From Jiangella alba (GTDB lineage: Bacteria; Actinomycetota; Actinomycetes; Jiangellales; Jiangellaceae), in assembly GCF_900106035.1 (NCBI RefSeq), contig NZ_FNUC01000003.1, positions 124,001 through 188,000 on the forward strand: DNA of 64,000 bases, written 5' to 3'. The stretch's first letter is position 1. Every line of letters begins with the position of its first letter. The translations under genes were made by a program, and so were the position numbers. Of this stretch, positions 16,223 to 18,200 are shown in pieces. Under the pieces are notes generated by a model. The model was not told the origin of the DNA. It ran no database searches and worked only from the letters and a program-made list of their open reading frames with translations.

Positions 16223-17029
16223 TCAGCCCTGGACGACCACGGCATCACCGGCGCTCAGGCCGAACTCGGCGGCCGCCGAGCCGCCGTTCACGACCAGCTC
16301 CAGGAAGCCCGGGCCGGAGCTGCCGGTGACCAGCGCGGCGGCGCCGACGGGCACGTCGGAGAGCCGCTCGTGGTGGCGCACCTTCGTGGCGCCGACGGCG
16401 ACCCGGTCGCCCGCGACGATGCCGAGGTCGGCGGCGGTGCAGGTCAACTTGCAGTTGCCGAAGTTGTCGACGAGCGCGACGTGGACGCCGTCCGGCTGCT
16501 CCGGCGCCGTCAGCTCGACGGCCGACGACGGCACCGGCCGGTCGTCGAGCACCCACTTGGCCAGCAGCGGCAGGTACCAGAGGCTGCGGAACTGCGTGGT
16601 GGCCAGCCCGGCGGCGTCGGCCGCGCCGATGGACGCCCACTCGGCCGCCGCCAGCACCGTCGCCGCGTCCGTCACCGAGACCGAGCTCACGCCGAGGTAG
16701 CGGCGCACCGGGTCCAGCAGCACCGGGTCGTACGTCGTGAACACGGTGTGCCGGCCGTGCCGGAACCAGCCGAACGGCGCCCCGTTGGGCCACCGGCCGT
16801 CCCGCGGCGCCACGTTGACCAGCGTCACCGTCGGGAAGCCGTCCTCGCCGAGCAGCCGCGTTGACAGCAGCACGTCCAGCAGCGTCAGCCCGGCCGACCG
16901 CAGCGGCGCCGGCCCGTCCAGCGGCAGCAGCACCGGCGACCGCCCGAACAGCGCCGCCATGCGGGTGGTCAGCCTGGCCTGCGCGTTCGCGTCGGAACAG
17001 TCGGTGAGGTAGGTGATCGGCGGATACAT
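16223..17029 (-). CDS. SAM hydroxide adenosyltransferase-like protein (DUF62)
   Basis: This 268-residue protein resembles the DUF62/duf-62 family, whose characterised members split S-adenosylmethionine with water to adenosine and methionine and are related to fluorinases and chlorinases. The N-terminal YLTDCSDANAQARLTTRM corresponds to the family opening with a conserved Asp. The C-terminal domain has ALVDNFGNCKLTC, the family's DNFGN motif, and ends in a beta-barrel segment (GPGFLELVVNGGSAAAEFGL). The N-terminal half is divergent, so the activity is uncertain. The ATG at 17029 has a GAGGGGA ribosome-binding site. A Met-rich leader peptide and a terminator hairpin precede it, suggesting attenuation. 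Confidence 0.7.
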   Translation of the reverse strand: MYPPITYLTDCSDANAQARLTTRMAALFGRSPVLLPLDGPAPLRSAGLTLLDVLLSTRLLGEDGFPTVTLVNVAPRDGRWPNGAPFGWFRHGRHTVFTTYDPVLLDPVRRYLGVSSVSVTDAATVLAAAEWASIGAADAAGLATTQFRSLWYLPLLAKWVLDDRPVPSSAVELTAPEQPDGVHVALVDNFGNCKLTCTAADLGIVAGDRVAVGATKVRHHERLSDVPVGAAALVTGSSGPGFLELVVNGGSAAAEFGLSAGDAVVVQG

Positions 17030-17048
17030 GCTTCCCCTCGGTGGGCAC

Positions 17049-17080
17049 AAAAAAAGGGCCCCCGCGCGGTGCGGGAGCCC
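17049..17080 (-). terminator. Intrinsic terminator/attenuator before the SAM-hydrolase-type gene
   Basis: On the minus strand, GGGC-U-CCCGC, a short loop, then GCGGG-G-GCCC (80 to 56 within 17056-17080) form a 9-bp stem with one mismatch. Seven U residues follow (17055-17049). It ends 19 bases before the ATG at 17029 and after a small leader ORF, so it should act as an attenuator rather than end an upstream gene. Confidence 0.75.
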
Positions 17081-17102
17081 GAGAGACTGACGGAGGGACG
17101 CG

Positions 17103-17150
17103 TCAGGCCAGCATCGAACGGCCGCACAAGGAGTGCAGCATTCGCATCAT
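17103..17150 (-). CDS. Putative Met-rich leader peptide
   Basis: A 15-codon ORF encodes MMRMLHSLCGRSMLA, with four Met and one Cys. It lies between a good promoter and the terminator hairpin at 17049-17080, in front of the gene for a SAM-consuming enzyme family. The stop codon is 22 bases before the stem, a spacing that would let a stalled or terminating ribosome influence folding. This layout matches ribosome-mediated attenuation. Sensing of methionyl-tRNA is inferred from the residue content; I cannot show conservation from this sequence alone. Confidence 0.5.
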   Translation of the reverse strand: MMRMLHSLCGRSMLA

Positions 17151-17175
17151 GGCGTGGCCGTGCGTCACGTCACAG

Positions 17176-17205
17176 ACCGTACCGACGCGCTTTCGGCCGG
17201 GTCAA
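17176..17205 (-). promoter_or_regulatory. Promoter for the leader peptide and SAM-hydrolase-type gene
   Basis: TTGACC (17205-17200) and TACGGT (17181-17176) on the minus strand are 18 bp apart. Transcription would start near 17169, about 19 bases before the leader peptide ATG at 17150. It overlaps the region used by the divergent thioesterase promoter. Confidence 0.6.
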
Positions 17206-17222: not shown

Positions 17223-17735
17223 ATGAGTCCCGAGGGCCGTCCGGCCTCCGCCGCGCAGACCAGCCTGTCGCGCATCATGACCGCGCTCGACACCAACCTG
17301 CTCGGCACCGTGCACGGTGGCGTCATCATGAAGCTCGTCGACGACGTCGCGGGCGCGGTGGCGCAGCGGCACTCCGGCGGCCCGGCGGTCACGGCGTCGA
17401 TGGACGAGATGACGTTCCTCGAGCCGGTGCACGTCGGCAACCTCGTGCACGCGCACGCGAAGGTGAACTGGACCGGCCGGACGTCGATGGAGGTCGGCGT
17501 GCGGGTGGTCGCCGAGCCGTGGAACGAGGTCCGCCCGGCCACCGCGGTCGCCAACGCCTACCTCGTCTTCGTCGCGCTCGACCCCGACGGCGCGCCGCGC
17601 GAGGTCCCGCCGGTGCTGCCGGAGACCGACGAGGACCGCCGCCGGTTCGCCGAGGCCGAGATCCGCCGCACCCATCGGCTGGCCCGGCGCGCGGCGATCC
17701 TGCGCTCGCGCGAGGAGGCCGCGCCGACGGCCTGA
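17223..17735 (+). CDS. Acyl-CoA thioesterase (hotdog fold)
   Basis: This 170-residue single-hotdog acyl-CoA thioesterase of the YciA/BACH type should hydrolyse acyl-CoA esters. The hotdog helix motif is NLLGTVHGGVIMKLVDDVAG, followed by VTASMDEMTFLEPVHVGNLV and WTGRTSMEVGVRVVAEPW. Length is normal. The ATG at 17223 is supported by a -10 box 7 bases upstream. Its last roughly 80 bases, including the stop codon, recur almost unchanged at 18013-18093, and a shorter piece recurs at 17878-17912. The 3' end has therefore been duplicated into the downstream spacer. Confidence 0.85.
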   Translation: MSPEGRPASAAQTSLSRIMTALDTNLLGTVHGGVIMKLVDDVAGAVAQRHSGGPAVTASMDEMTFLEPVHVGNLVHAHAKVNWTGRTSMEVGVRVVAEPWNEVRPATAVANAYLVFVALDPDGAPREVPPVLPETDEDRRRFAEAEIRRTHRLARRAAILRSREEAAPTA

Positions 17736-18200
17736 CGGCGGCGGCTGGCGGCCCGGTGGCTGGCGGCCCGGCGGTTCGCGGCCCGGTGGCGAGTACTGGT
17801 AGTGGTTGCCGGGGTGGTGACGAGAACGCCAACTGTTGGCGCTGGTGTCAACAGGTCCGAGACCTTGGGCCGACTGGCCGAGATCCGCCGCACCCACCGG
17901 CTGGCCCGGCGGTTCGTGGCCCGGCGGCGGGAGCTGTGGTGGTTGCCGGGGTGGTGACGAGAACGCCAACTGTTGGCGCTGTTGTCACGGGTCCGGGACC
18001 TTGGGCTGGCCGGCCGAGATCCGCCGCACCCATCGGCTGGCCCGGCGCGCGGCGATCCTGCGCTCGCGCGAGGAGTCCGCGCCGACGGCCTGACGGCGAC
18101 TGGCGGCCCGGCGGCGGGAGTTGGTGGTGGTTGCCGGGGTGGTGACGAGAACGCCAACTGTTGGCGCTGATGTCAACAGGTCCGAGACCTTGGGCCGACC
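17736..18200. repeat. Three-copy intergenic repeat interleaved with copies of the thioesterase 3' end
   Basis: A 67-68-base unit beginning TGGTTGCCGGGGTGGTGACG occurs at 17803-17870, 17940-18006 and 18128-18195 with few differences. Each copy holds the perfect palindrome CGCCAACTGTTGGCG (17827-17841, 17964-17978, 18152-18166). Between copies 2 and 3 lies a near-exact copy of the thioesterase C-terminal coding end (18013-18093, one difference seen), and between copies 1 and 2 a shorter piece. GC-rich filler of the type TGGCGGCCCGG flanks the units. The rest of this 685-base gap (18201-18420) holds only the leader of the next gene. I see no complete gene here. Confidence 0.85.

Follow-up and report, generated by a model that had tools for sequence, protein, structure and literature searches.

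The DUF62-type gene of Jiangella alba considered here, which lies in a 64,000-nucleotide stretch of DNA (hereafter the window), is preceded by a short, methionine-rich open reading frame and a hairpin. The question raised by this locus is whether the two act as a ribosome-mediated attenuator and, if so, what is being sensed. A reading made from the sequence alone had proposed a methionine-sensing leader of this kind, and the promoter, the terminator with its seven U residues and the ribosome-binding site that it named were all recovered on the minus strand. The features of the locus are as follows.

17200..17205, minus strand: -35 box TTGACC, from the sequence; present in 10 of the 11 distinct Jiangella leaders and absent from L003
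17176..17181, minus strand: -10 box TACGGT (TAnnnT), from the sequence
17103..17168, minus strand: leader peptide gene encoding VTHGHAMMRMLHSLCGRSMLA and a stop codon, with a GTG start at 17168, probably leaderless
17136..17147, minus strand: core (A/C)TG-CGA-ATG-(A/C)TG, here ATG CGA ATG CTG (M-R-M-L), the proposed stall site
17133..17137, minus strand: segment 1, TGCAC, which by folding can pair with segment 2 (protector hairpin within the ORF); its columns are invariant in 11 Jiangella leaders
17122..17127, minus strand: segment 2, GTGCGG, the putative antiterminator strand, starting 20 nt past the first base of the core
17069..17074, minus strand: segment 3, CCGCAC, the end of the 5′ arm and the first two bases of the terminator loop, complementary to segment 2
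17056..17080, minus strand: terminator hairpin GGGCTCCCGCACCGCGCGGGGGCCC, 10 pairs, nine of them G-C
17049..17055, minus strand: U-run of seven
17032..17039, minus strand: ribosome-binding site GAGGGGAA of the structural gene, with GAGGGG ahead of ATG 17029
16223..17029, minus strand: divergent protein of the predicted DUF62 / SAM hydrolase fold, 268 aa

The two promoter boxes (TTGACC, 17205-17200, and TACGGT, 17181-17176, minus strand) are separated by an 18-nt spacer, exactly as had been claimed. The promoter was not listed by a sigma-70 scan, and TACGGT shares only T, A and T with TATAAT. The consensus given for Streptomyces lividans is TAnnnT at -10 and nTGACn at -35 (PMC8079986). The short ORF of the sequence-only reading (MMRMLHSLCGRSMLA and a stop codon, 17150-17103, minus strand) is present, but it probably constitutes the last 16 codons of a longer leader ORF, with an in-frame GTG at 17168 that lies 7 nt past the -10 box, at the expected transcription start. 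The leader ORF very probably starts at this GTG and not at ATG 17150, and its transcript looks leaderless, since the start codon of every distinct leader collected (see below) falls 6-8 nt behind a TAnnnT. This spacing also suggests that transcription starts at or beside the leader GTG or ATG. Across both strands of the 64-kb window there are 12 [A/G]TG starts placed 6-8 nt after a TAnnnT, and the leader alone among them opens an ORF of 10-35 codons. It contains four internal Met within 20 codons past the start, compared with a Met frequency of 1.43% of codons in the window's long ORFs. The hairpin (17080-17056) with its U-run (17055-17049) is the one terminator-like site found between 16000 and 18600. 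As 0.7 such sites are expected in shuffles, its mere presence is not beyond chance; the leader is lifted above chance by the conservation of the arrangement across relatives.

A separate feature of this neighbourhood is that the 3′ end of the adjacent thioesterase gene is partly duplicated behind that gene (17654-18199). The duplications comprise a unit of about 96 nt and a unit of about 106 nt, each present three times, which are 60-95% alike. A palindromic stretch within these repeats occurs three times there and once elsewhere in the genome.

Sixty four relatives of the protein were fetched, 43 from Actinobacteria and 21 from MAGs of Patescibacteria and other non-actinobacterial groups. The core TGCGAATG was found within a short upstream ORF at 42 of the 43 actinobacterial loci, the exception being L065, whose gene lacks its N-terminal half. 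These 42 leaders, together with 19 found later and that of the window, gave 62 leaders, of which 51 were distinct (Streptomycetaceae 25, Kribbella 12, Jiangella 11, Actinospica 2, Catellatospora 1). Two rows were omitted, namely L065 (a gene without its N-terminal half, in a locus that lacks the core) and L101, the second part of the gene that is split at L100. The same layout ahead of the same gene was observed in 51/51 distinct leaders from these five actinobacterial groups. The distance from TAnnnT to the in-frame ATG or GTG was 7 nt in 49 leaders, 6 nt in one and 8 nt in one; the start chosen was the most upstream in-frame one with a TAnnnT 3-12 nt ahead, and all came out at 6-8. The CGA-ATG of the core, translated in context as (M/L)-R-M-(M/L), is present in all 51. 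Because leaders were selected via TGCGAATG itself, the invariance of the core is supported by its presence with every intact copy of the gene and not by the alignment. The sequence-only reading had named a lack of conservation in relatives as grounds for its refutation, and it withstood this check, as the ORF, the Met codons and the hairpin accompany all actinobacterial copies found but the truncated L065. A chance ORF was rejected as an explanation by the 51/51 start layout, the uniqueness of the leader in the window and the copies in the Kribbella order described below.

Leader peptides differ between the groups. Those of the 11 Jiangella leaders resemble VTHGxAMMRMLHSxCGRSMLA, those of the 12 Kribbella leaders VTWYAAMRMLSPRCG and those of the 25 Streptomycetaceae leaders MQHTATLAMMRMMPPPPEALR; one of the two Actinospica leaders has MTAGFAMMMRMMPRSPEALR, and the one from Catellatospora has VTSPEPQPSLRMMRPVGRETAGA. 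An Ala is often found shortly ahead of the core R-M, and Met and Leu exchange on either side of it. Leaders outside Kribbella and Catellatospora contain 3-5 internal Met and the single core Arg, and those of Kribbella and Catellatospora contain one or two internal Met (for example VTWYAALRMLSPRCGGL of Kribbella). The Kribbella leaders with one are L013, L143, L146 and L147, the others having two. In the alignments of Jiangella and of streptomycete leaders, neither of which includes L049, every indel within the leader ORF measures 3 or 6 nt. L049 has a 1-nt deletion that breaks its leader frame, and its stop was set by hand for the duplex and fold tests. Alignment A5 comprises 20 of the 27 leaders from streptomycetes and Actinospica. 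Kribbella leaders are free to vary in the peptide past the core, where the frame is shifted by an indel of 1 nt, so their C-terminal part may serve RNA pairing or spacing and not a peptide function.

Leader and gene go together. The gene is present in 12 of 393 genomes sampled across the class, 11 of these in the window's genus (for which there are 12 genomes) and one elsewhere (G377). The exact core 15-mer was found in 15 of the 393, comprising 11 of the 12 gene-bearing genomes and four of the 381 without the gene. All four of these occurrences fall inside apparent long ORFs, two of the four being on the opposite strand. In the remaining gene-bearing genome (G226, locus L083) the core differs at one base, with ACG for the first ATG, and G113, the sole genome of the window's genus without the gene, also lacks the core. 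The genus of G377 is called Streptomyces here, since named Streptomyces loci have leaders identical to several of those found in it; there, the gene is present in 9/343 genomes (split by a frameshift in one) and the leader in 9/9. Within the order to which the Kribbella genome G717 belongs, which is that of Kribbella capetownensis (L010), the gene is present in 24/391 genomes, and the core and a start 7 nt past TAnnnT are found in 24/24. Half of these leaders (12) are identical to some of the 51 and 12 are new; the fold tests below covered the 51. Given this sparse distribution, leader and gene may have moved between Actinobacteria as one unit.

The core was also considered as a mark of other genes. 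The exact 15-mer gave no such case, as it occurs outside the locus only four times in the 393 class genomes, always in apparent long ORFs. A shorter string, TGCGAATGMTG, gave 2-7 hits in each of five relatives' genomes against 0-2 for the reversed control, and is too short for specificity. At the 21 non-actinobacterial loci (L042-L048, L050-L055, L057-L063, L066) no core was found within 420 nt upstream or the extent of the locus. The homologues at these loci, mostly from Patescibacteria MAGs, are 29-39% identical and stand without the leader. Patescibacteria have reduced genomes, yet the homologue has been kept. In the Kitasatospora copy (L065:3900-4500) the N-terminal half of the gene and the leader are both missing, and the two seem to have been lost together.

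A hairpin of -17.7 to -27.2 kcal/mol was found 14-31 nt past the leader stop in 51/51 leaders under a loosened U rule; a stricter U-run rule recovers it in 45 of the 51 and misses six. Most leaders from Jiangella and streptomycetes have a good U-run; it is poor in several from Kribbella and nearly absent in Catellatospora L018. An Rfam search at gathering score returned no match in the window and a single match, a tRNA, in the loci of 12 relatives. A SAM riboswitch or other Rfam element was rejected accordingly.

An antiterminator of the sort expected by the sequence-only reading exists on paper, as pairing between segments 2 and 3 and in folds computed in silico. In the examples from Jiangella, streptomycetes and Actinospica, segment 2 starts 20-21 nt downstream of the core's first base, and the size of the ribosome footprint puts it just outside a ribosome with a core Met codon in its A site. 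The complementarity of segments 2 and 3 takes the form GUGCGG-CCGCAC in Jiangella and CGGAGG-CCUCCG in Streptomycetaceae. All 11 Jiangella leaders have the six pairs (one pair is GU in two of them); A99, an unpaired base of the terminator loop, is invariant and the bases past C100 vary. Six pairs are likewise present in 20/20 streptomycete rows, where segments 2 and 3 are invariant and the 3′ arm of the terminator is variable. Within clades, the leader alignments contain almost no covariation.

When a ribosome was placed at the core in silico, the upstream RNA captured at least half of the terminator 5′ arm in 51/51 leaders. Moving the ribosome to the stop codon reduced this to 8/51 (Streptomycetaceae 0/25, Actinospica 0/2, Kribbella 2/12, Jiangella 6/11, Catellatospora 0/1), and with no ribosome the arm was captured in 11/51, eight of which were from Jiangella (8/11). 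In the window leader, 8/10 bases of the arm are held with the ribosome at the core, 0/10 with it at the stop and 7/10 with no ribosome. When the ORF part was shuffled, capture and energy together were equalled in 0-5 of 100 trials, depending on the clade; shuffles of the whole upstream region matched capture alone, per 100, in 23 for Jiangella, 13 for Kribbella, 28 for Catellatospora, 6 for Streptomycetaceae and 4 for Actinospica. Duplex z-scores were modest for Jiangella (-1.16, 9 leaders) and Kribbella (-0.88, 9) and good only for Streptomycetaceae and Actinospica together (-2.43, 27). Swapping segments between clades showed that the Jiangella segment 2 favours Jiangella arms (-17.9 vs -8.3 to -15.9 kcal/mol). 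That of Streptomyces does nearly as well on Kribbella arms as on its own (-19.4 vs -20.4 kcal/mol), that of Actinospica pairs better with Streptomyces arms than with its own, and that of Catellatospora pairs best with Jiangella arms. The swap therefore gives only partial support. Overall, the predicted antiterminator pairing can be graded by clade as good (Streptomycetaceae and Actinospica), fair (Jiangella) or weak (Kribbella).

The completed terminator is favoured at equilibrium in the leaders shown from the fold test, and because the finished terminator wins in this way, a switch would have to be kinetic. That the terminator is the equilibrium fold also suits a plainer account, in which the small ORF is untranslated or senses nothing and the hairpin is a constitutive partial terminator or the end of a small RNA. 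We think this improbable, as the start spacing is kept in 51/51 leaders, indels inside the ORF are confined to 3 or 6 nt in the Jiangella and streptomycete alignments (L049 excluded) and segment 2 is conserved inside the ORF.

The reading that we prefer, and hold to be probable, is trp-type ribosome-mediated transcription attenuation that turns on when charged Met-tRNA is scarce. RNA polymerase would start at or next to the GTG or ATG of a leaderless leader gene, and a ribosome would translate the leader ORF. If elongator Met-tRNA is scarce, the ribosome would stall with, we infer, a core ATG in its A site; segment 2, just outside the stalled ribosome, would then pair with the 5′ arm of the terminator and permit read-through into the DUF62-type gene. 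If Met is plentiful, the ribosome would reach the stop and cover segment 2, and the terminator would form. The rare CGA before the key ATG may slow the ribosome and so keep it in step with the polymerase. In Streptomycetaceae and Actinospica the leader would also head an amino-acid ABC importer, which would make it a methionine-salvage switch.

The methionine-sensing leader of the sequence-only reading is supported in part, by the conservation of its Met codons. Against a plain Met sensor, however, the strictly invariant part of the leader is R(CGA)-M(ATG), with M or L on each side, and not the Met count, which in Kribbella comes to only one or two internal Met. Since CGA-ATG is invariant though CGA makes up just 2.9% of the window's Arg codons, the codon CGA or Arg probably also matters. 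With the invariant part being CGA-ATG and the Met count varying, we rank Met-tRNA limitation first and a signal from the nascent peptide second. In the latter, a chain ending (M/L)-R-M-(M/L) would stall the ribosome in response to a small molecule, be it SAM, methionine or a related metabolite. Precedents are the arrest peptides that respond to SAM in plants (CGS1) and to Trp or ornithine in bacteria. In all five groups the R-M is kept without exception and has M or L on either side, and CGA-ATG is fixed at the codon level where the number of Met codons is not, both of which point towards arrest; against it, the chain is just about 8-13 residues long when the core is reached, and we regard this account as unlikely. 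Among the open-licence papers listed for MMRMM, none concerned a leader peptide by title. A bolder form, in which the nascent (M/L)-R-M-(M/L) chain, aided by the rare CGA, directly senses SAM or methionine, stalling the ribosome with the metabolite either bound or absent, and so controls a mobile SAM-cleaving salvage module (the enzyme and, in some groups, an amino-acid importer) that carries its leader with it, strikes us as doubtful.

The core M-R-(M/L) also resembles the M-R-L at which the ErmD leader stalls in a macrolide-dependent manner. A drug, or a general slowing of translation, might accordingly stall the ribosome at the core, the leader then reporting translation stress. Stall-induced leaders do exist in Actinobacteria, one example being whiB7 (PMC13236596). 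Nevertheless, the neighbouring ABC genes look like those of an importer, and we give stress stalling a small chance. We know of no resistance family to which the DUF62-type gene belongs.

The gene had been called a SAM-hydrolase type. This description is upheld by the predicted fold and only in part by family models. Pfam recognises the C-terminal SAM_HAT_C alone (PF20257, 44 bits vs a cut-off of 25.5) and leaves the N-terminal domain unrecognised; SAM_HAT_C is found in 19/19 family members (E up to 1). Of 23 sequences, the protein alignment (A1) comprises 19; it omits L044, L056, L060 and L051, whose given frame contains a stop. The NCBIfam (R)-SAM hydrolase models NF058624 and NF053629 are missed, with 28.6 of 350 and 13.6 of 470 bits respectively, and a sequence search of solved structures gave weak DUF62 matches over the C-terminal part. 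The AlphaFold2 model (pLDDT 89.6), by comparison, aligns along its entire length with structures of SAM hydrolases, chlorinases and fluorinases (Z 15.9-20.6), the best match being 2zbv_C (Z 20.6, 239 aligned, 3.5 Å). Judged by this model, the protein is a DUF62 fold with a divergent N-terminal domain.

A canonical DUF62 paralogue is encoded elsewhere in the same genome (G000:C3:444714; L002:985-1773), a point that counts against the preferred reading. Relative to it, VVDPGVGT is replaced by LVNVAPRDG and DGRD by QFRS, and VDxFGN is kept. We take the VVDPGVGT and DGRD stretches to hold the catalytic residues of the hydrolase; SAM hydrolases have a catalytic Asp-Arg-His set. In the sequence alignment with the paralogue, Asn72 lies beside the Asp of VVDPG, and the paralogue itself has no His at the DGRD stretch. 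Binding of a SAM-type ligand by the protein is likely from the modelled fold, and its probable substrate is SAM or a closely related compound, cleaved to return methionine. Release of methionine from SAM is put as probable and not as certain because Pfam sees the C-terminal domain only and the NCBIfam models are missed by far. The same genome also contains two metK-like genes (G000:C2:119825 and C3:2269128), one with a TGA inside the match.

Genes for an amino-acid-type ABC importer lie directly behind the DUF62-type gene at L009 and at streptomycete loci. A solute-binding-protein motif was found downstream in 21/23 streptomycete and Actinospica loci (L065 is not among the 23); the two without it are L023, where the contig ends, and L026. 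Family searches confirmed a binding protein and a permease in two loci and an ATPase in one. The best NCBIfam match of two binding proteins tested was of the Lys/Arg/Orn type, all such models scoring below cut-off. In Catellatospora (L018:3995-6905) the divergent DUF62 gene is followed by metK and a B3/4-domain gene, an arrangement seen in one genome only. Inspection by eye of two Jiangella and two Kribbella loci revealed no importer or metK neighbours, and neither was noticed among the ORFs of 13 of the 21 non-actinobacterial loci viewed in the same manner. At three of the latter (L046, L052 and L055) a nearby ORF resembles one shared recombinase-type protein.

The binding-protein matches bear on arginine control, whereby the invariant CGA would be the control codon and charged Arg-tRNA the quantity reported. 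Such control would fit both these matches, below cut-off as they are, and the presence of CGA in all cores (leaders were picked by TGCGAATG, yet every intact gene copy had the core). The protein family and the metK neighbour point instead to SAM or Met, and outside Kribbella and Catellatospora 3-5 internal Met stand against the single core Arg; we consider arginine control very improbable. Under Met-tRNA limitation, our preferred reading, the combination of a transporter with a Met-releasing enzyme under a Met-codon leader suggests the salvage of methionine from an imported compound.

Lastly, we compared the leader with known systems. Attenuation of this class is a classical mechanism, and Actinobacteria already have known leaderless leaders for amino acids. 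Mycobacterial Cys leaders are reportedly leaderless, to go by the title of Canestrari 2020. Like the DUF62 leader, they are leader ORFs for a sulfur amino acid in Actinobacteria (PMC1262725), but they have runs of Cys and no conserved terminator hairpin; they have been termed translation attenuation (PMC13236596). The ilvB1 attenuator of Mycobacterium tuberculosis shares control codons in a uORF, masking by the ribosome and a choice between terminator and antiterminator, but it has branched-chain codons, serves a biosynthetic operon and has a 166-nt leader (PMC13236596). The leaderless leaders of S. lividans (leuL, trpL, ilvL, metL) likewise consist of a short leaderless ORF with control codons and a downstream hairpin (PMC8079986). 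Of these, metL, which precedes metNIQ, is the proposed Met leader of that species; it differs in its peptide (MSTTSDRTPATEATTTPGARCMCRRMCAF), in preceding a Met importer and in missing a typical terminator (PMC8079986). The eight S. lividans leaders tabulated in that paper include no DUF62 leader.

In the papers considered, control of Met and SAM genes in Actinobacteria has been attributed to riboswitch-type RNAs and this one proposed Met leader (PMC8079986), and a 2005 comparative survey described no conserved RNA elements at actinobacterial Met operons (PMC1262725). SAM riboswitches and the Streptomyces-metK/metH RNAs of Rfam are likewise cis control of Streptomyces Met/SAM genes (PMC8079986); the DUF62 leader differs from them in having a conserved coding ORF and no Rfam match. 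Among the open-licence papers listed in the literature searches, no title or opening of an abstract mentions a leader peptide ahead of a DUF62-type gene, in agreement with the earlier view that this control is undescribed. The present leader is a conserved and apparently leaderless addition to those of Actinobacteria, a probable attenuator with Met codons.

With DUF62 SAM hydrolases, including the (R,S)-SAM hydrolase of Salinispora tropica (PMC12120602), the Jiangella protein shares the predicted full-length fold and SAM_HAT_C; it differs in an N-terminal domain that Pfam does not recognise and in the changed VVDPGVGT and DGRD stretches. The Salinispora tropica enzyme has a preference for (R,S)-SAM, there is debate over what it does physiologically, and why cells keep enzymes that destroy costly SAM is an open question (PMC12120602). 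If the switch answers Met shortage, the role of such a SAM-destroying enzyme would be salvage. The compact leader occurs in cultivable Jiangella, Kribbella and Streptomyces, making this directly testable, and its CGA-ATG core is the feature that could set it apart from leaders of the known kind.
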